From: a virus | Virus record (IMG/VR): IMGVR_UViG_3300024520_000030 | Coordinates: 1-36,015 of that record | DNA: 36,015 bases | Reading direction: 5' to 3' (one strand) | In this document: piece by piece, positions 1,064 to 35,834 of the stretch | How positions within the stretch are numbered: position 1 is the first letter of the stretch | Layout: each line of letters starts with the position of its first letter | Translations under genes and position numbers: made by a program | Notes under the pieces: generated by a model | Databases searched by the model: none | What the model was told of the DNA's origin: nothing | What the model saw: the letters and a program-made list of their open reading frames with translations, nothing else

Positions 1064-2251
1064 CTAGTTGTTAGCTAAACGGGTAGCTAGTTGAGCGCGA
1101 ATAGTTTTATATCCGTACAAAACGTCGATACGAGTTGGGAAGGTGTCGTTAGTAATATCGTAATCTGACACGATGCGCATACTAATTCCATCCATCACTT
1201 CACGTGCACAGAAGTCAACGCCGCTTGGTTTACGCAGATCAGCAGTTACAAAAGTAAATGCGTCAGGGTGATAAGCTAGAGATATATCGTAAGCTGCTGA
1301 AGCGCCGCCGACTTTAGTTAGTGCTGAGTTGTTAGCCGCTCCGTTAGATACGTTTTGACGCGCACCAGATGCGATAATCTCAGGTGTAAAGCTGATTGTG
1401 GTAGCTGAAGCTGAAACAGCGCCGTCAACAGTAAACTGCTGTAATACGCCGGTATCTGCTTTAGTTTCAGGATGTACGCGATTAACACCTGCAACTGTGA
1501 ATATATCACCATCAGTCCAAGTGCCTGCACCTGTGTCAATAGTTAATGAAGTGCCAGTTTGCGCAGTCGCGCTATCAGTTAGGTAATCACCTGTACCGTC
1601 ATCAGTGCCAGAGGTATGACGAGGCATCATAGTGTTTTCAAAGAAGTCAAAGCCAGACGTGCGACCCAACGAACCTTCGGTGTTTTGCGCTGAGATAGTA
1701 CCGGCTTTATTAAACAAACCGCTCATTGCGTCTACAACATCAACGTTTAAAGTTGTGTCGAGGTTACACTTTAGACCCATAGGAGGCGTCAAGTTATCAA
1801 CTAACTTCTTACGACCTTCTAGGATTTTCTTGAAAGTACCTGCAGAACCAACGTTGTTAACTTGGCTATAAACATCTTTGTACATGCTTAATGCGTCGTT
1901 TTCGATGTTGGCTGCTAGTACAGACATCATTGGTTCAAGTACGCGAGTACCGAAGTCGTCAATGTCCATAGTTAGCTCTTCAGAAGTAAATTCAACATCA
2001 ACACCCTTTTGGGTAGCTACTGTTAGAACTTCTGATAATTCTGTTACATCCTGCACTTGGATAGCCGCGCCTGTACGAACTGTATATTCGTTAGGTTTAC
2101 GGATAGTTAGTGTAGAACCGATTTTAGCGCCATCGTTAGCAAATTTGTCGTCGTATTGACGGTTGATATTTCCTACGAAGTTTAGCTTTTGATGCAAAAT
2201 GCGCAAAGCTTCCCTTGTTACTTGTGTACTTGTTAAGTTGGTATTAGCCAT
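1064..2251 (-). CDS. Major capsid protein, P22 coat (gp5) family
   Basis: This is a 395-residue coat protein of the HK97-fold P22 gp5 family (430 residues in P22). The N-terminal region has the expected pattern MANTNLTSTQVTREALRILH, followed by NRQYDDKFANDGAKIGSTL and RKPNEY. The stretch at about residues 230-290 (SLTIDTGAGTWTDGDIFTVA, then VNRVHP) fits the inserted beta-barrel I-domain found in P22-type coats. The C-terminal YGYKTIRAQLATRLANN resembles the family end. It sits directly after the scaffold gene. Procapsids probably assemble around scaffold with a T=7-type shell, as in the family. Confidence 0.93.
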   Translation of the reverse strand: MANTNLTSTQVTREALRILHQKLNFVGNINRQYDDKFANDGAKIGSTLTIRKPNEYTVRTGAAIQVQDVTELSEVLTVATQKGVDVEFTSEELTMDIDDFGTRVLEPMMSVLAANIENDALSMYKDVYSQVNNVGSAGTFKKILEGRKKLVDNLTPPMGLKCNLDTTLNVDVVDAMSGLFNKAGTISAQNTEGSLGRTSGFDFFENTMMPRHTSGTDDGTGDYLTDSATAQTGTSLTIDTGAGTWTDGDIFTVAGVNRVHPETKADTGVLQQFTVDGAVSASATTISFTPEIIASGARQNVSNGAANNSALTKVGGASAAYDISLAYHPDAFTFVTADLRKPSGVDFCAREVMDGISMRIVSDYDITNDTFPTRIDVLYGYKTIRAQLATRLANN

Positions 2252-2253
2252 GT

Positions 2254-3060
2254 TTATCTATTCCTATCGTCTATTTGTTTAATTCGCCACTTCTGCCACT
2301 CGTCAGCCGATAAACTATCTGGGTCTATCTCTTTGGCTTCCGAACCACCTAAAGGCTCGATTGGGTCTGGTGCGTCAGATACTTTTTTAGGCGTTAATGC
2401 CTGCACCTGATATTCCAGTTTTGTCAATTCACGCGCTCTTTGTACGGGTGTTAGAGCATATATTCTTTCGGCTTCGTCCAAGTGTGCGCCAAGGTGATAA
2501 GCAACTTCTGGACCTTTATCCATGTCAAAGATTTGTTCTGCTAAATCCGTGTCCATGAAGTCATGACCATATGCAACATCCTCAAAGTTTTCAAAGTTTG
2601 CGCGCTTTGTATCAACGTTCTGATCGAAAGCCTTTTTCTTTGAATGCAGTGTTTCTTGTCGCGTTTGCTCGTTACTACTATCTACCCTTGCTTGCTGTTC
2701 CGTTGCCATGCGTTCATAAGCGCGGTTTGTAGCTGTTTCAGCTATATAGTCCGCTTGCGCTGTTTGGTAGTCTGAGTAATCATCATACTCATCCTCTTTA
2801 GGCGCTGCTAATTCCTGCTTGACCGGCTCAACCTTTCTAGCTTCAAGCTCTTTAAGTCTCGCCTCTAGCTCTTGGTTTTTCGTTCTTTGCTCGTACTTTT
2901 CACGTGTTAATTGATTAATACGCTCTTGCACCTTGTTACCTTTCGGCTTTTCTTCTGGTGTTTCGGCTGCGCTGCCCTGTTCGAGAGCTTCCGGTGTGGT
3001 CGTTGATTCCACATTTTCAACGGGTTCACTGATAACCTCAGTGCTGGCTAATTCTGACAT
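2254..3060 (-). CDS. Scaffolding protein, P22 gp8-like
   Basis: This 268-residue, highly charged protein is nearly all helix or disorder. It has an acidic N-terminus rich in Glu, Thr and Pro, a long coiled-coil-like middle (residues about 45-75 rich in Glu, Lys, Arg and Leu), and a short basic C-terminal end KWRIKQIDDRNR. P22 scaffold binds coat through a basic C-terminal helix-turn-helix, and this end fits that role. The place between portal and coat is the P22 order. P22 gp8 is 303 residues. The scaffold is expected to exit the procapsid during packaging (family knowledge). Confidence 0.87.
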   Translation of the reverse strand: MSELASTEVISEPVENVESTTTPEALEQGSAAETPEEKPKGNKVQERINQLTREKYEQRTKNQELEARLKELEARKVEPVKQELAAPKEDEYDDYSDYQTAQADYIAETATNRAYERMATEQQARVDSSNEQTRQETLHSKKKAFDQNVDTKRANFENFEDVAYGHDFMDTDLAEQIFDMDKGPEVAYHLGAHLDEAERIYALTPVQRARELTKLEYQVQALTPKKVSDAPDPIEPLGGSEAKEIDPDSLSADEWQKWRIKQIDDRNR

Positions 3061-3081
3061 AATAGATACGTTCCCACGAAT

Positions 3082-5127
3082 TTAACCTGGTAAACCACCA
3101 GTAGGTGCCGGACTACCGGCGTTTTGCACTAAACTAATTACTTGGTTAAGGGATTCTGTTAGAAGCCTTTGATCTTGAGATGCTACGGCAATCTCCGCCG
3201 CTGTAACTGCGTTCTCTACTTCGTTCTGATGCGCCTCTGACATGCCCTTAACCGCCGATGCTTGCTTATTTGCGGTATCAGCTTGCTTGTTCTCAATTAT
3301 AGCTTGTTTTTCCATGAACTCCAATTCTAGCCCCTTGGCTTGAACCTGCGCTTGCTGCTGTTGTTGCTGTTGTTGAGCTGCTTGCTGTTCTTCGTCTAGC
3401 TCTTCTTCGATAATACCTGGAGGTAATAACTTTTTAAGGCGTTCGGCCATTTCATCAGCGCCAGGCCAATCTAGGTTTTTAGCAACCAAGTCGCCAGCAA
3501 CCTGTAGAACCTGCGGGAATACTCTCGCCAATTCAACCATTGAACTAGCCGCTTCCATTCTGCGCGTTTTATAGCTTGGCCCAACTCCGACACGAATGTC
3601 ATATTTACCGCGAGTTAGGTCGTTTTGTATTCTCATACCATCCGGCGTAAGCATTGGTTTGTTTATTTCTACAAAGTTTACCGAGTCATCCTCACCGCGT
3701 AGGCGTATCATTCTTTGCGTGTCATAGTACTTTGGTATCAATTCAATGATAACTCGGCCTGTGTGCTCTATGCCGCCTGCCAAGTTATCCATGAATAGCG
3801 ATGTGCCTAAATCAGCTTCTTGCTGTAAGGCTATAACCGCACGACCAGACCTATTTTCTGCATTAGGTTGCTGGGCTGCTTCAAAAACCCCTGTTGCTTG
3901 CTGGATATCTTGAGCGCTAACCGCCGCCTGTTGTAATAATCCCGATTGCATGGTAGGAGGGGCTATTCTTTGTGGTGGTGGTGCTTTGCTGTCTGGTTCA
4001 TAAGGGAGATACGGCAAGTTCTCTGTATTGGCCTTTTCCCAGAATCCTTTATAGTTTTTAATTTGGTCTTTAGTTACTAGGTAAGGCGCTTTAGGTTGTA
4101 GTGCGATAGTTTCAGCCGCCGCGCTATTCCAATAGTTATACATTCTTTGCGGGTCTTTAGCTGCTCGCACAATGCCTCTATACTCTGTCTCACCTTCGAT
4201 GTTTTCCTCTTCACCATATACAGGAATGATCGGGAATAGCTTACCAGGCCAAACGGCGTGCTCTAATATTTCAAACGCTGTTAACTTGTACCAGTGAATC
4301 TCATTTGTATCTACTTCGCGCTCTCTAACTGGTGATACACCCTGTTCACTATATAGCTGGATATCTTCTTCTGTTATCTCATCTGTGGGTATTACAGACC
4401 CATTTGATAGTTGAGTTATCTTCTTCTTAACTTTCTTTTTAACAAAGTACTCGCCTATCCTAACCGAATCGCTGGAATACCATCTCTCCTGAGTCTCACC
4501 CAGCCCTTGATTAGGGATTGATGAAGGTATCTTTTTATCATACTTGGCCTCGTAGGCATCTTTTGACATCGTGTTAGATATAACAACGAATCGCCCGTCT
4601 TGCTTTTGAGGCTTGATAGCGTCTGGGTCAAAGTAGACTGTAAACGGATTCTTAATAGGGTTGATAGTTATATCTTGGTCAAACATATCATCGTCATTCA
4701 TAACCGTTCCGACACGCCATACACCATAGCCGCATTTTACCTGAAACTTTGCAGCGTTAAGGTATGCATTCCGTGCGTTGCTAGACTGCTCTATCTGCCT
4801 AACTAAATCCTCTAATACATCTGAGGTTTCTTTATCTGCTCCGTCGTCAATGGGGTCAACTTTAATAGATGGCATACTTTGACGAATGCCGCCCATGACT
4901 TTGCGTATTGATTGACCGATATGGTCCAGCGTCAACATAGGCCGGTCAGAGCGTTCTTTCTTCACATCATCAGGCCATTGGTCCAATGCTGCAAATCTAA
5001 GGTCGTCGACCATATCTATACGGTTACGGCTTTCGGCTGTAAATGCCAAATCAAAGTCGGTCACGAACTGCTTTAATATCTTGTCCGTTTCTTCCTGGCT
5101 CATCTTTTTGTCTGATAGCTTAGGCAC
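3082..5127 (-). CDS. Portal protein, P22 gp1-like
   Basis: This 681-residue protein (P22 gp1 is 725) forms the dodecameric vertex through which DNA is packaged and ejected. Characteristic segments include RIDMVDDLRFAALDQWP near residue 40, MLTLDHIGQSIRKVMGG, KCGYGVWRVG, and a mid-region NRSGRAVIALQQEADLGT. A polyglutamine run near residue 590 and a Gln/Ala-rich helix follow, fitting the long C-terminal barrel of P22-type portals. Its start overlaps the end of the terminase gene by 8 bases, consistent with coupled translation. No adaptor gene lies between it and scaffold. Confidence 0.94.
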   Translation of the reverse strand: MPKLSDKKMSQEETDKILKQFVTDFDLAFTAESRNRIDMVDDLRFAALDQWPDDVKKERSDRPMLTLDHIGQSIRKVMGGIRQSMPSIKVDPIDDGADKETSDVLEDLVRQIEQSSNARNAYLNAAKFQVKCGYGVWRVGTVMNDDDMFDQDITINPIKNPFTVYFDPDAIKPQKQDGRFVVISNTMSKDAYEAKYDKKIPSSIPNQGLGETQERWYSSDSVRIGEYFVKKKVKKKITQLSNGSVIPTDEITEEDIQLYSEQGVSPVREREVDTNEIHWYKLTAFEILEHAVWPGKLFPIIPVYGEEENIEGETEYRGIVRAAKDPQRMYNYWNSAAAETIALQPKAPYLVTKDQIKNYKGFWEKANTENLPYLPYEPDSKAPPPQRIAPPTMQSGLLQQAAVSAQDIQQATGVFEAAQQPNAENRSGRAVIALQQEADLGTSLFMDNLAGGIEHTGRVIIELIPKYYDTQRMIRLRGEDDSVNFVEINKPMLTPDGMRIQNDLTRGKYDIRVGVGPSYKTRRMEAASSMVELARVFPQVLQVAGDLVAKNLDWPGADEMAERLKKLLPPGIIEEELDEEQQAAQQQQQQQQAQVQAKGLELEFMEKQAIIENKQADTANKQASAVKGMSEAHQNEVENAVTAAEIAVASQDQRLLTESLNQVISLVQNAGSPAPTGGLPG

Positions 5128-6667
5128 TCATCCAACCCCTAGATTGTGTAATGTTTAGTGATATATCGTCATTTAGAGATACAGGCTCTGCGAATGTTAA
5201 CGCCAACGAATCACCCTCATCAGGTGAAAAGCCGTATTTCTTTTTAATTTCGTCTTTCTTCAATAATACTATTCTATCATGGGAGTCTCTGCGGTACGGG
5301 CTTGCGCACAAGTCGGCCTGCAGCTCGTCGTCGTCCGGTACATCTACGTCTAAGTTTTCGTCCCTTAACCATAGATTCATCTCACCCCACATTTCACCGC
5401 GTTTGTTTAGATACTTCTCGTCATCTAATGGAGATGAACCAAAGTATATCGCCTTCACCCTGCCTTCATATCCTAATTCATGTAGTCGGTCTACTAAGTC
5501 CGCACCACCACCAGCGTCTATAAACATCATGTCTGGTTTTTTCTTGGCTACGAGGCAAGTGGTGTCTAGAACCTTTTTACACTTAGCCACCGATTTGCCT
5601 AATGAGTCTATCTGGTCGCCTACATAGCTTTTCTTGTCGTATGCTTTCCTACCCTGGCGTTTGATAATAGAGAATCTATCTCCACCTCTGGAAGGGTCAA
5701 CACCGACTATTAATGGACCATTACCGTTAACCGTTGCCTTTCTAGCTTTCACAACATGAGATGGAAGGATTAACCCGCCGTCCCCTGATATTTGAAAGGC
5801 TTCTGCTGCGTTGTTTGGGTACTCTTGATTGAATGCTTTCCCGCCGTCTGTCCCATCTGCTGACAATTCGGCTATCTTTTGTCTGCGCCAGAATATTTGG
5901 TCTTCGTCTAGCCCGTAACTTTGTACAAGCTGTCTTTCTACATCAGTTATTAGAAAGTCATCCGGTTTAGCTTTGCGGTATTCATCCTGCCAGAACCAAG
6001 GCACAAATATAGGTAAGAATTCGCTCTCTCCTCGCTCTGCCATCTTCCATTGCTGATGAAAGAAGTTACCCACACCGTTAGCGGTAGATTCGTATATAAC
6101 CTCTGTGTCGGCTGCGTCTGGAATAGTCTGTAATATCCCTTTTGCGTGCTCTGCTGCGTTGGGCCAAAATGCGACTTCTGAACCATGAAAGTATTGATTT
6201 GTTTGCGACCGTCCGACCGACTTGTTTCCTGCCGTGCCTACTTGATATCCGCTATCTAATAGATTGAAATGCATCTCTTTGGCGTTTGCTGCGCTGGTAC
6301 TTGGCTTAACAAACTTTGGCAGATGCTCATAATATCGTTTAGCCATACTAAATACGTTTTGGCTTGCGTCGTCTTCATGGGTAAGTATATAAGCTCTCAC
6401 CCCGAGGTTATGAGTAACACGCCACATGAATCGACCTTGGGTGTATGTAGTGCAACCCTGTTGTCGACCCTTTAGAATCATCGCCCGAATCTTTCCGGTG
6501 GACTCTCTTTGCTCTTCTAGCTTCTCATGTATGTATAGCTGGGCTTTGTTGAGCTTGAATGGCTTTAGACCTTGGTCCTTTGTACGAATGAACAGGCAAT
6601 TTTTAGCATAGAATGGAAAATCATTCTTGAGCCTTTTGCGCTGCTGTAATTCGATATCATTAGTCAT
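5120..6667 (-). CDS. terL: Terminase large subunit
   Basis: This is a 515-residue packaging motor with an N-terminal ATPase and a C-terminal RNase H-fold nuclease. The Walker A-like loop is LKGRQQGCTTY (residues about 65-75), the Walker B-type segment is YFHGSEVAFW (159-168), and a YESTANGVGN coupling motif follows (192-201). Nuclease acidic residues are visible in VGVDPSRGGD (321-330), MFIDAGGGAD (381-390) and GDSLALTF near the end. Length matches P22 gp2 (499). It overlaps TerS by 8 bases upstream and portal by 8 bases downstream. Headful packaging is expected and agrees with the circularly permuted assembly. Confidence 0.96.
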   Translation of the reverse strand: MTNDIELQQRKRLKNDFPFYAKNCLFIRTKDQGLKPFKLNKAQLYIHEKLEEQRESTGKIRAMILKGRQQGCTTYTQGRFMWRVTHNLGVRAYILTHEDDASQNVFSMAKRYYEHLPKFVKPSTSAANAKEMHFNLLDSGYQVGTAGNKSVGRSQTNQYFHGSEVAFWPNAAEHAKGILQTIPDAADTEVIYESTANGVGNFFHQQWKMAERGESEFLPIFVPWFWQDEYRKAKPDDFLITDVERQLVQSYGLDEDQIFWRRQKIAELSADGTDGGKAFNQEYPNNAAEAFQISGDGGLILPSHVVKARKATVNGNGPLIVGVDPSRGGDRFSIIKRQGRKAYDKKSYVGDQIDSLGKSVAKCKKVLDTTCLVAKKKPDMMFIDAGGGADLVDRLHELGYEGRVKAIYFGSSPLDDEKYLNKRGEMWGEMNLWLRDENLDVDVPDDDELQADLCASPYRRDSHDRIVLLKKDEIKKKYGFSPDEGDSLALTFAEPVSLNDDISLNITQSRGWMSA

Positions 6668-22130: not shown

Positions 22131-22373
22131 ATGAATACTAATGATTTAGATTGGCAAGATTGGACGGATAACCCTGATACCGCTGATAGCTTTGAGCTTA
22201 TCGGCTTTGAACATTCGGCGTATGAAGGAGAGGGCAAGGTATTAAGAACATATGTAGACGCTCACGACGCCGTGATTGATATCGTTGAATATGAGCATGA
22301 TTGTATTATTGCTATCTGTGAGGACTCGGAATATCACGTTTCTGTAGATGAAATCGAGGCGCTGGCGGTATGA
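22131..22373 (+). CDS. 80-residue acidic unknown protein
   Basis: The product MNTNDLDWQDWTDNPDTADS is strongly acidic, with a mixed strand pattern VDAHDAVIDIVEYEHDCIIA later on. An AAGG site precedes the ATG. It overlaps the methyltransferase-like gene by 4 bases. Acidic small proteins of this type can mimic DNA, but nothing specific supports that here. Confidence 0.65.
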   Translation: MNTNDLDWQDWTDNPDTADSFELIGFEHSAYEGEGKVLRTYVDAHDAVIDIVEYEHDCIIAICEDSEYHVSVDEIEALAV

Positions 22374-22972
22374 ATGTTTTAGTAGCCTGTGAATATTCCG
22401 GCGTTGTTCGTGATGCGTTTATACGTGCTGGGCATGATGCAATCAGCTGTGACCTAGAGCCAAGCGATAGCGACTTTGGACCTCATTACCAGGGTGATAT
22501 TTTTGACATAGATTTAACTGGGTTTGATTTAATGATAGCTCACCCGCCGTGTACTTATTTGACTAATTCAGGTGTATGCCATTTACATAAAGACGCTAGC
22601 CGCTGGCCTAAGTTGTTTGATGGTGCTGCGTTTTTTAAAAAAATAATGGAGCTACCGATACCGCGAAAGGCGATAGAAAACCCAATTATGCACAAGTACG
22701 GTAAAACATTAATTGGTGGCGTTAAGCAAAGCCAGGTGATTCAGCCTTGGTGGTTTGGTCATCTAGAGCAAAAAGCAACTTGCCTTTGGCTTAAAGGCTT
22801 GCCGCTTTTAGAGAAAACGCACGACGTTAAAGCTGAAATGATGGCACTACCAAAGCGCGAGCGTGAGCGGTTACATTATTTACCACCCAGCCCGGATAGA
22901 TGGAAGTTGAGAAGCACGACATATAAAGGGATTGCTGAGGCAATGGCCAGTCAATGGAGTATAGCGGTATGA
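22370..22972 (+). CDS. DNA methyltransferase-like protein (HPPC/ENP type)
   Basis: This 200-residue protein has an AdoMet-binding-like N-terminus MNVLVACEYSGVVRDAF, a catalytic-type motif IAHPPCTYLTNSG (57-68; Pro-Pro-Cys as in C5 cytosine methyltransferases), an AIENP motif (101-105) in place of ENV, and IQPWWFGHLEQKATCLWLKG. This matches a family of short phage proteins annotated as DNA cytosine methyltransferases. At 200 residues it is much shorter than typical C5 enzymes, so the target-recognition part is reduced. No partner nuclease gene is present, so its role would be self-modification or host-DNA control (inference). Confidence 0.8.
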   Translation: MNVLVACEYSGVVRDAFIRAGHDAISCDLEPSDSDFGPHYQGDIFDIDLTGFDLMIAHPPCTYLTNSGVCHLHKDASRWPKLFDGAAFFKKIMELPIPRKAIENPIMHKYGKTLIGGVKQSQVIQPWWFGHLEQKATCLWLKGLPLLEKTHDVKAEMMALPKRERERLHYLPPSPDRWKLRSTTYKGIAEAMASQWSIAV

Positions 22973-30645: not shown

Positions 30646-31323
30646 CTAAAAGGTTGGTGTTGTGCTGTGGCTTGTGTCTGATACGCCTGGTGGCAGCCTT
30701 GAGCCTCCTGCATTGCCGCCGCCACTCCCAGCAAATGCGCCCAGTGCGTTAATGCCGGTATTGATTAATCCTGCCTGCGTATTACCTTGCTGTATAGCGC
30801 CTTGCGCTTGCGCTTGGCCTATTTGGTTTTGTAGGCTAGATACGTTTGCGCCGGTTTGTAGTGCTGCCGTTGCTTGGCCCGATGCTGCATTAGCGCCCAT
30901 ACCTGCTACATTGAATAACTGATTAAACCGCTGATTTTGAAGTTGTGGAACGATTGTAGAAGTTAAGTCTGTATTGAACTGCGTTAACTCCTTCATTTCT
31001 GCGCCTGCTCCGACACCTCTGGCCGATGCCTGCTCGCTTATCTGTGCAAATCCTTGGTCGCGTAGAAAGTTAACTACAGGGTTTATCTGCTCTAGCCCTG
31101 CATTAGGGTCGCCGAGTAGGTTTGTTAATTGCCCGCCAGCTTCTAGACCGATATCCGCGAAAGGTTGCGTTCGTTCTGTCGCTCTATCTTCTGCGGCTAA
31201 TTGAGACTCTATTCCTGCTTTGGCCGCCCTTTCTTGCGCTCTTACTGAACGCTTCGATGCCTTATCTTGTTGATTGGCGGTTATTGCGCCACCAACAACT
31301 ATTGCCGTTGCTATTCCTGACAT
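30646..31323 (-). CDS. DNA ejection protein, P22 gp7-like
   Basis: This 225-residue protein (P22 gp7: 229) begins MSGIATAIVVGGAITANQQD, a short hydrophobic stretch cleaved or membrane-active in the family. It then has a helical charged region RSVRAQERAAKAGIESQLAA, FRDQGFAQISEQ-like segments and a Gln/Ala-rich C-terminal half (QNQIGQAQAQGAIQQGNTQA) ending in a Gly-rich, Pro-rich tail. It is the first of the three ejection genes. Confidence 0.87.
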   Translation of the reverse strand: MSGIATAIVVGGAITANQQDKASKRSVRAQERAAKAGIESQLAAEDRATERTQPFADIGLEAGGQLTNLLGDPNAGLEQINPVVNFLRDQGFAQISEQASARGVGAGAEMKELTQFNTDLTSTIVPQLQNQRFNQLFNVAGMGANAASGQATAALQTGANVSSLQNQIGQAQAQGAIQQGNTQAGLINTGINALGAFAGSGGGNAGGSRLPPGVSDTSHSTTPTF

Positions 31324-32262
31324 TTAAGCCACCTCGCCTATTTGCGTATTCAATGAATCTCTGTAATCAACTGTTATTTCTTGCGTGCCGATATCTTTAA
31401 GTGCTACCAAGTTAATATTATTTCCATCTCTTTTCATTATAGCGTTAGGTGCAAATGAGTGGTTCACATACCTGCCCGCTATAGTGCGCTTACCATCTAT
31501 TCTCGCTGGCATTATTACAGACCCAGATATAAATGATTTATCAGAATAAAGGCCTTTGCCCTCTATTATTGATTCGCCGACTGTTACACCATAATCAACA
31601 TCTAGTGCAATTTGGTCGCCTGCGAACTCTGACTGTTCACGGACTAGCTTCTCGGTAAAGCCGTACTCTTTCAGTACTGCGAAATAATCCGCCATATCTG
31701 TGTCCAGCTTTGATTTTTTGTTTTTTGCCGTTAAGTATCCAATTCTAAAACTTTGATAGTCGACCATTACCGGCTGTTCTTGGTATGCCGATACAATCTC
31801 CGGTTCTTCTATGTAATCGGATAGGGTTAAAGTTGTTTCTAACTGCGCAAAGCTTGAACACGTCAATGCGTCCAAACATTCATCGTCTGACATCTCGCTA
31901 GATACGCAAAATGTAATCCATTTAGTTTCTTTGTGGGTATATCCTGCGCGTTTCTTGCCCTTGTTTCCTTTGAATATATGAAAACCTTCTAGCCTTTTAA
32001 TTCCGTCGTCAGATGAAACTGTGACATCTCCGTACACCATTACGTCAAAGTGATCATCTCTGTATATTCTGCCGGTTAATGCCGTACCCGCTGGAATTAT
32101 TATTTCCCTTGCGTATATTCCACCAGCGTGTCGACCCACTGTGGGTATATCAACCTGCGGCTCTTTCATCCATTCACGTTCAAGCGCTTCTATTTTGCAC
32201 TGCACGTCTTTGGCTGATATATCACCTGATACACTTAATATAAGGCTATTTATATCCATCAT
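31324..32262 (-). CDS. Cupin-SET fusion protein
   Basis: This 312-residue two-domain protein lies in the tail and ejection cluster. Residues about 45-120 form a cupin-like barrel: GGIYAREIIIPAGTALTGRI, HFDVMVYGDVTVSSDDG, and GYTHKETKWITF. Residues about 226-300 match SET lysine methyltransferases: GKGLYSDKSFISGSVIM, RYVNHSFAPNA (the NHSxxPNA motif, 264-274) and EITVDY (295-300), which supplies the catalytic-type Tyr. In the usual NHSC motif the Cys is Phe here. A possible role is methylation of a virion or host protein. The start at 32259 (second Met) is an alternative; the first overlaps the upstream stop. Confidence 0.82.
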   Translation of the reverse strand: MMDINSLILSVSGDISAKDVQCKIEALEREWMKEPQVDIPTVGRHAGGIYAREIIIPAGTALTGRIYRDDHFDVMVYGDVTVSSDDGIKRLEGFHIFKGNKGKKRAGYTHKETKWITFCVSSEMSDDECLDALTCSSFAQLETTLTLSDYIEEPEIVSAYQEQPVMVDYQSFRIGYLTAKNKKSKLDTDMADYFAVLKEYGFTEKLVREQSEFAGDQIALDVDYGVTVGESIIEGKGLYSDKSFISGSVIMPARIDGKRTIAGRYVNHSFAPNAIMKRDGNNINLVALKDIGTQEITVDYRDSLNTQIGEVA

Positions 32263-32603
32263 GTTTCTGTAGTTCCAGATATATCAACGTTAATAACCGA
32301 CGCTGTACCAGCTAAACCGGATATCTTCATACTATTGCCTAATGTGTGACCTGTTAGTTTTTGGACTCTAACCGTTCTACCGGCTGGAATAGTTTCTTTC
32401 CATGTCCAATTACCACCGCTGCCTGTAGTGCCTGTAGTGGCCGTTAGAATGCGCCACAATGTTACTTCTACGTTTGAGGTCGAGGTGTTTGTAAGTGTGA
32501 TATTGCCTATAAACTTCTTTTCTGTCGAGTTTGCAGAAACAAGCGTAACTTCTGCTGCTGTTAGCTGTGTTTCCGATGCAAAATCATTTAGTGTGATTGC
32601 CAT
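32259..32603 (-). CDS. Small beta-rich virion protein
   Basis: This 114-residue all-beta protein, MAITLNDFASETQLTAAEVT, continues FIGNITLTNTSTSNVEVTLW and ends in beta strands, like small jelly-roll fibre-associated proteins. It overlaps both neighbours by 1-4 bases, and so is co-translated with the cupin-SET gene and the larger fibre-like proteins. No catalytic motif is seen. Confidence 0.7.
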   Translation of the reverse strand: MAITLNDFASETQLTAAEVTLVSANSTEKKFIGNITLTNTSTSNVEVTLWRILTATTGTTGSGGNWTWKETIPAGRTVRVQKLTGHTLGNSMKISGLAGTASVINVDISGTTET

Positions 32604-33929: not shown

Positions 33930-34465
33930 CGCGCAAACCACTCATCTGAATCTATGAAATAATGAAAGTTTATAGCGGTCCCTTTGGTTCTGATATTACC
34001 TAGACTGGACCCGTTTATATTCTTCCCGTTGCCGTTTAGTTTTATTGACGTTCCGTCGCCATTTCTAACAATTACCACTTCGTTTTCTTCTGGGTATTCG
34101 TTAAATGTTATCTGTGCACCGCTCTTAGCGTTTACAAACTCATATCCTACACAAGTATAGTCTATCGACGTTGTGATTGCTCTAAAGGCTTTAGGTTCGA
34201 CATATTCAGGGTAACTAAAACGCTGCTCTTGTTCGTTCTCTTGGCTGTATATGTTAAATAGCTTTGATTCATCGGTATTTGTACCAATATTTACAGTATT
34301 GTTTTCTATTTTATCAACGCCACCGCCGGTCCTTAGAAAGATATCGTGTAGAAATCTATTCAAATACTCTAACTGTGGGCGTAGCTCTGGGTCGCTTAAC
34401 CACTTCCTAGGCCATGTAACAACAAACGGGTCGACGTTAGCCAATTTCAAGCTCCACATCTGCAT
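33926..34465 (-). CDS. Putative tail needle-position or minor tail protein
   Basis: This 179-residue protein has an N-terminal WLSDPELRPQLEYLNRFLHD followed by IFLRTGGGVDKIENN, a segment seen in proteins downstream of gp10-type genes in marine podoviruses. Its C-terminal half is beta-rich with IKLNGNGKNINGSSLGNIRT and an aromatic end YFIDSDEWFAR. It occupies the place of the P22 needle gp26 but is not visibly a long coiled coil. It overlaps gp10 by 29 bases, with either of two close start codons possible. Confidence 0.7.
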   Translation of the reverse strand: MQMWSLKLANVDPFVVTWPRKWLSDPELRPQLEYLNRFLHDIFLRTGGGVDKIENNTVNIGTNTDESKLFNIYSQENEQEQRFSYPEYVEPKAFRAITTSIDYTCVGYEFVNAKSGAQITFNEYPEENEVVIVRNGDGTSIKLNGNGKNINGSSLGNIRTKGTAINFHYFIDSDEWFAR

Positions 34466-35834
34466 TAGCAGATATAAGCACCCATTTAATAGGGTCGGTC
34501 ATTGTGAAGCGGAACATTCTATTATAGAAATATCCCAAGCTTAACCAGTCTAGTTTGTAGGTATAGTCACCCATTTCACCCACTGACGCCCAGCGCTCAC
34601 TACTCCACGTCTGCCCGTTATCATCTGAATATTGCATTATAACTGTGGCTTTCGATGTAACTAGACTTGCACCAGGCTGAATAACTAGCGTTAGCTTATC
34701 CATAAATACACGGGCGTTAGGTTTTCCGAATGTCGCGCCATTTATAGATATAGTATCGCGCCTTCTATGTATCGGGTCTCCATTGTCCGTGTATGTGTCG
34801 AAATCTAACTCGTATATGTTGCCGTTCCTGCGGTCTGCGACTAAATGCTTTCCGTATATATTTGCATAGTCGCTGATTAGATGCTGTGAGCCGTCGTAGT
34901 TATAAGCAAGTTCTGTCCATAGCCCCGCCGCTTCATTGAATAGCCACGTCTTATTCCCTTCTGGAAATGATAGGAGGTAAAAATTCATACTATCGAGCGT
35001 AAAACAAACGCCGAACGCGTCGCTTACATCACTATACCCTGCTATCTCTTGACCTATTGCTGGGTTGCTTATAGGTCGAACATCTAACCCGCCCAACTGG
35101 TATACATTACGGTCACTTCCTAGAAAGTAAGCGTAGTTGTTGTTTGTTGCTACTGAATGCGCCGCCGCCAGGCCTATTTCTTGGGTGGCGTTTAGTATTG
35201 GTAGATATGGGGAATCTGCGTCACCTGTGGCGTACAATGGCTGTATAGTTTCCGCGCCGTATGCGTATACCTGTTGCTTATAAGCATCAACCGCCACCAT
35301 ATCATCCGGCTTTGATTCTGCCTTGATTGCAGTTAAAGACCCTGCTGATAATGGCTCGTCTAAGTCAGCAAATACAACATTGCCAGCCGCCCCGTCATAC
35401 ACCATTCTACGATTGATGTATGTGACCGTGTCCGCATTTGGCAAATCCTCGTCTGTTCCAAGGGTTAATGTAGAGCCGTCATATGTATAAGGCTTACTTT
35501 CACCCGTAGCGATAACCAAGTTGCTACCATCTGAATCTATGGAACACCGCCCTGTCCCGTCAATAGTCCCTGCACTTGTTTGTGTTCCGTCCGATTCTAC
35601 GCTGTAAAGCGTATTGCCTGAGATGGTATATAAAACACCATTAAGGCTTCCCATGCCTCTATTCTCACCTGCACCAGTAGACCATGGTTTAAGACCTGGA
35701 AATGGCATTAGTGAAAGAGGTTCACCGCCCTGCTGATTAACTTCAATATAGAAGTTTCTGGTTACTTGGGATGATACAGGTAGCGACCTATTGGTATAGG
35801 TTGGACCTACTAATGGTAGCGGTATAGTTGCCAC
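34437..35834 (-). CDS. P22 gp10-like tail hub (packaged DNA stabilisation)
   Basis: This 465-residue protein (P22 gp10: 472) continues the tail below gp4 and seals packaged DNA. It has the typical N-terminus MATIPLPLVGPTYTNRSLPV and repeated beta-propeller-like blades: GSLNGVLYTISGNTLYSVES, YAYFLGSDRNVYQLGGLDV, LWTELAYNYDGS and HLVADRRNGNIYELDFD. The start codon is GTG (35832-35834) and overlaps the gp4-like stop TAG by one base. Confidence 0.9.
   Translation of the reverse strand: MATIPLPLVGPTYTNRSLPVSSQVTRNFYIEVNQQGGEPLSLMPFPGLKPWSTGAGENRGMGSLNGVLYTISGNTLYSVESDGTQTSAGTIDGTGRCSIDSDGSNLVIATGESKPYTYDGSTLTLGTDEDLPNADTVTYINRRMVYDGAAGNVVFADLDEPLSAGSLTAIKAESKPDDMVAVDAYKQQVYAYGAETIQPLYATGDADSPYLPILNATQEIGLAAAHSVATNNNYAYFLGSDRNVYQLGGLDVRPISNPAIGQEIAGYSDVSDAFGVCFTLDSMNFYLLSFPEGNKTWLFNEAAGLWTELAYNYDGSQHLISDYANIYGKHLVADRRNGNIYELDFDTYTDNGDPIHRRRDTISINGATFGKPNARVFMDKLTLVIQPGASLVTSKATVIMQYSDDNGQTWSSERWASVGEMGDYTYKLDWLSLGYFYNRMFRFTMTDPIKWVLISANADVELEIG

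Follow-up and report, generated by a model that had tools for sequence, protein, structure and literature searches.

We report a short-tailed phage in which the gene directly ahead of the DNA-ejection genes encodes an N-terminal jelly roll fused to a C-terminal SET domain. We consider it reasonably likely that this protein is an AdoMet-dependent protein-lysine methyltransferase that is docked by its jelly roll and acts on a phage protein made alongside it. This reading is carried by the fold of the SET domain, by the conservation of its catalytic residues in a large phage family and by the genomic slot of the gene.

The fusion gene, its neighbors and its family

The window, that is, the whole stretch of DNA that was analyzed, is the 36,015-base virus contig IMGVR_UViG_3300024520_000030, and only one SET hit was obtained across the record. 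The fusion gene occupies 31324..32262 on the minus strand, as do all features of the protein described below, and encodes 312 amino acids from an ATG start (the stop codon is counted in the coordinates). The ATG of a P22 gp7-type DNA ejection gene (30646..31323, minus strand; phrog_598, 'DNA ejection', E 5e-25) directly follows the TAA of the fusion gene, confirming the original prediction that the open reading frame lies in front of such a gene. At its other end, the start of the fusion gene is overlapped by ATGA with a gene for a small upstream protein (32259..32603, minus strand). Co-translation with small fibre-like proteins had been proposed; the coupling is upheld by this overlap, but the description as fibre-like is not, as there were sub-threshold matches only. 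For the small protein itself, the only match is to the lamin-tail domain (LTD) and is below threshold (E 7e-4; 20.3 bits, where 34.3 would be required). A P22 gp10-type head closure gene farther upstream (34437..35834, minus strand; phrog_578, E 3e-92) provides the module context, and the coat, scaffold, portal and terminase genes are found at 1064-6667 of the window. Judging from this location in a run of structural genes only, the fusion protein is presumably made late. The window also carries a phage DNA methyltransferase gene on the plus strand (22370-22972; phrog_757, E 6e-57).

The protein matches PHROG family phrog_34170 over its full length (residues 14-307 on profile positions 10-282 of 296, E 1.4e-59), while NCBIfam and PADLOC gave no match for the fusion protein. 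A scan with a SET alignment detected at least 467 relatives in IMG/VR and 12 on bacterial and archaeal genome contigs, and both domains were present in 92 ORFs among the fetched loci. Full-length relatives are also encoded by two cultured phages, Pseudoalteromonas phage PH1 and Rhodoferax phage P26218. Because the conserved family is deep, a chance occurrence can be excluded. Of 98 SET loci, 73 have a gp7-type gene as the immediate downstream (+1) neighbor, and most have a gp10-type gene 1-6 genes upstream; some SET loci adjoin terminase or other genes, not gp7. In one deposited genome (L007, MW202557), the jelly-roll/SET gene at 4356-5240 is unannotated, and the name of a neighboring opposite-strand ORF, 'contryphan-vn-tryptophan', is probably a misannotation.

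Fold and conservation of the two domains

The C-terminal domain almost certainly has a SET fold. Pfam SET (PF00856) matches the fusion protein with a score of 28.4 bits (E 2.2e-6), above the curated cut-off of 22.4 bits, and a profile made from six SET parts of the family matches solved PDB chains of the MLL1/MLL2 SET domains (E about 8e-8), vSET (1n3j, 3e-5) and SETD7 (0.017). AlphaFold2 modeled the SET part alone with a pLDDT of 93 and a pTM of 0.84. Foldseek returned 224 PDB matches to this part at E<=0.001, and all 50 of those listed were SET or PR domain proteins; the matched structures include MLL1, SETD8, vSET and SET7/9. The TM-scores, about 0.5 by query length and 0.64 by vSET length, fit a common core with differing surroundings. 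Together, Pfam, the PDB profile hits, Foldseek and AlphaFold2 (pLDDT 90-98) delimit a SET core at 31348..31587 (residues about 226-305). The three SET landmarks on which the original prediction was built are all present, namely GKGLY (residues 235-239), NHSFAPNA (267-274) and EITVDY (295-300), with the Pfam score above its cut-off, and the structure prediction and fold comparison that it had called for yielded both the SET fold and a cupin barrel.

Conservation was counted over 45 non-redundant jelly-roll/SET fusions. The AdoMet-binding GxG is part of an SxIxGxG motif (31552..31572, residues 231-237), in which S231 and G237 are invariant and G235 is present in 44 of 45 members. The stretch ARIDGKRTIAGRYVNHSFAPN (31444..31506, residues 253-273) unites a family signature, RTxxGRY, with the NH motif and has no SET-I insert; R259, T260, G263, N267 and H268 are found here in all 45, and R264 and N273, like G235, have a single exception each. 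In EITVDYR (31360..31380, residues 295-301), E295 and Y300 are invariant, and Y300, at the catalytic position, aligns with the DY of MLL. Columns conserved at 95% or more across the fusions number 16 in SET versus 5 in the jelly roll, and this is the pattern that selection on an active site would leave. As N267, H268, E295 and Y300 are invariant, an active enzyme is favored over a reuse of the fold.

Two common but variable traits of SET domains, which we took as non-defining, are both absent from this protein. The first is the SET-I insert, which in known SET enzymes helps to build the substrate groove: between the matched stretches, from the GxG strand to the NH motif, the family has 2 residues versus 39 in MLL2. 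The other is the Tyr of the YxG motif, which reads IDG here. A conserved two-helix segment ahead of SET (31627..31710, residues about 185-212, pLDDT about 90), with D192, G201 and Q210, might stand in for the absent SET-I. The original prediction had also raised a doubt over activity, from the Phe that replaces the usual Cys of the NHSC motif. This Cys is known for zinc binding together with a post-SET segment, and SET7/9 (NHSF) and vSET (NHSK) likewise have no Cys after NHS. Across the 45 fusions, the residue after NHS is Lys in 16, Ala in 6, Pro in 4, Leu in 4, Ser in 3 and Phe in 2, with Cys in 1 and other residues in the remainder. Given this free variation among family members, we have dropped Phe-for-Cys as a sign of inactivity.

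The N-terminal domain (31867..32157, residues about 36-132) forms a jelly roll of the cupin fold. The full-length AlphaFold2 model places the jelly-roll strands at about 41-120 and the SET strands at 226-298, and a Foldseek search with the whole-protein model returned mostly cupins (E about 1e-6; target TM about 0.6-0.7 for the best matches), so that the domain qualifies as a cupin/RmlC-like barrel, as had been foreseen. Residues 15-145 match phrog_12032 and phrog_24280, which bear the PHROG names short tail fiber and tail fiber adhesin, names given by similarity; it is through such similarity only that the protein is annotated as a virion component. The metal-binding His/Glu set of enzymatic cupins was not conserved among the 45 fusions (only H71, present in 39, comes close; H110 is present in 18). 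We regard the jelly roll as structural because these usual ligands are not conserved, and the domain is best seen, on its residues, as a structural and presumably non-enzymatic barrel. The linker that connects it to the SET half (31711..31866, residues about 133-184) is poorly conserved, with low pLDDT at 127-151 and a mean pairwise identity of 28% over residues 150-200.

An optional SET domain and other partners of the jelly roll

Jelly rolls without SET occupy the same genomic slot in BA3, VvAW1, VPMS1, X14 and a Vibrio phage. In a tree of the jelly rolls, a SET-less member (L169) is the sister of the fusion studied here (SH-aLRT 97). The tree implies 8 changes between SET and no SET, at least 4 of which are forced by strong branches; it derives from a short alignment that leaves many forks open, and the 'no SET' label of L187, at a contig end, is unreliable. 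This repeated gain or loss indicates that SET is optional and outside the core role of the scaffold. The SET domain looks like a separable, optional enzyme on a conserved scaffold of the tail/ejection module. Other arrangements also occur: a split form from Paraburkholderia ferrariae (L097, 9180-10627) encodes the jelly roll and SET separately, in genes that overlap, the domain order is swapped with the SET motifs kept in L070, and SET is a free-standing gene in L099. Both the split and the free-standing SET genes retain the same catalytic residues. Extra N-terminal domains in L073, L090 and L092, and the long jelly-roll ORFs of L114-L116, L148 and L150, were judged to be over-extended ORFs and not fusions.

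A second type of enzyme gene, encoding a GNAT acetyltransferase, is found beside jelly rolls. Pfam-positive GNAT genes lie directly before the jelly roll in BPP-1, MW202722 and Acinetobacter phage MD-2021a, and 90 jelly-roll loci, picked without regard to SET, contain 38 GNAT ORFs, of which 31 were direct calls for the gene that precedes the jelly roll. In L009, L103, L109 and L114-L149 (BPP-1-type and other podophages), the jelly-roll gene lacks SET and the GNAT gene, Pfam-positive in the three checked, abuts its start or overlaps it. SET and GNAT are not strict alternatives as partners of the jelly roll, an idea refuted by two loci that carry both, L010 (phage zth2-2) and L058. At these loci (L010:8691-9179 and L058:8725-9171), the SET fusion comes after terminase and the GNAT gene is two genes downstream. 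These associations are a hint that the jelly-roll scaffold goes with protein-modifying enzymes. Podophages may use a jelly roll near their ejection proteins as a dock for SET or, in the BPP-1 type, GNAT, such that phage or host proteins would routinely have their lysines modified as virions mature or DNA is delivered, but we regard this generalization as speculative and rather doubtful.

A further domain, of the phrog_4177 type and with a weak match to the T7 gp13 family phrog_308, is fused ahead of the jelly roll in L191 (4482-5393) and is a separate gene before the jelly roll in L159/L160 (4606-5004). P22 gp14 and T7 gp13 may have a likeness to GNATs. A relation of either protein to the BPP-1-type GNATs was unsupported by profile comparison, and homology between P22 gp14 and the jelly roll was rejected (probability 0.5%).

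Activity, target and relation to known systems

In the mechanism that we propose, a compact SET domain, with neither SET-I nor a zinc-binding post-SET segment and borne on a jelly roll, would be a protein-lysine methyltransferase. The jelly roll, as the conserved part of the slot, would most likely serve as the dock that attaches the enzyme to the tail or the ejection apparatus under assembly. The SET domain would then use AdoMet to methylate lysines of a co-made tail, ejection or coat protein of the phage as late assembly proceeds. The conserved residues suggest that the protein is probably an active AdoMet-dependent methyltransferase. It could be argued instead that a tail protein has repurposed the SET fold for structure or binding, with no methyltransferase activity: SET is fused to a jelly roll of structural type, the gene lies among tail genes, and SET-I and the YxG Tyr are both missing. 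We think this improbable, as N267, H268, E295 and Y300 are invariant and the GxG is near-invariant over very divergent members, and SET is more conserved than the jelly roll. Moreover, the same residues are kept when SET is split off (L097) or free-standing (L099), and the repeated loss or gain of SET argues against a needed structural role.

If the enzyme is active, we lean slightly towards a virion or assembly protein as its target. A comparison of gp7 proteins between SET and SET-less phages revealed no SET-linked conserved lysine, and lysine is scarce (2.1%) in the gp7-type proteins that SET phages encode. Hence, there is no special support for gp7 as the target, and methylation of gp7 at one conserved lysine was discarded as a candidate. 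This result would also be compatible with an active SET methyltransferase that acts mainly on a host protein, whether through late synthesis or because the jelly roll carries it in the virion and it enters the cell along with the ejection proteins. The conserved catalytic residues, the position directly ahead of an ejection gene and the optional, patchy presence of SET, as expected of a host-directed accessory function, all agree with a host target, which we nevertheless consider unlikely: the gene sits in the structural run and not among early genes, no delivery signal is evident, and the slot also holds conserved jelly rolls that have no enzyme attached. Self-methylation is known in some SET enzymes, and the enzyme might mainly modify lysines of its own jelly roll or linker as an assembly switch, for example at the near-invariant K104, which is Lys in 41 of the 45 fusions. 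However, jelly rolls that lack SET often have this Lys as well, so its conservation is independent of SET, and a self-directed role seems very unlikely.

That a large conserved phage family bears SET on a jelly roll of the tail module suggests a part for protein methylation in phage assembly or infection, a step that has scarcely been studied. The cultured members, PH1 and P26218, make activity, target and need directly testable, and the missing SET-I makes the phage domain a possible minimal SET enzyme. In the open-licence literature on SET domains in phage tail genes, our coverage of which was incomplete, we found no description of the jelly-roll/SET family. A phage 'SET domain protein' is on record as ORF62 of vB_SmaM_Ps15 (PMC9025141).

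Comparison with known systems places the protein as follows. Its nearest relatives, in PHROG 34170 (which has no functional name and includes the PH1 and P26218 proteins), share the same domain order over the full length and show no difference in kind. Among the deposited relatives, that of MW202744 bears a label taken from the PBCV-1 enzyme, 'pbcV-1 histone H3-lys 27 methyltransferase structure'. BPP-1 Bbp23, BA3_0007 and VvAW1 gp4 (phrog_12032/phrog_24280) have a homologous jelly roll, and a gp7-type gene comes next in BA3, VvAW1 and others, but they lack SET, and a GNAT gene directly precedes the jelly roll in BPP-1 and on more than 30 contigs. P22 gp14 and T7 gp13 fill the same slot, directly before the first ejection gene, but P22 gp14 has no detectable sequence relation to the jelly roll, and neither protein has one to the GNATs. 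SET enzymes are known mainly as histone or protein-lysine methyltransferases of eukaryotes and their viruses. With vSET of chlorella virus PBCV-1 (PDB 1n3j, 3kma) and with MLL and SETD7, the phage domain has in common the SET fold, the GxG, the N-H motif and the C-terminal Tyr, whereas it differs from them in the absence of SET-I, the RTxxGRY signature, the two conserved pre-SET helices, the fusion to a jelly roll and the origin in tailed phages. We place the jelly-roll/SET protein among the SET methyltransferases, as a probable enzyme whose architecture and genomic context are both new.
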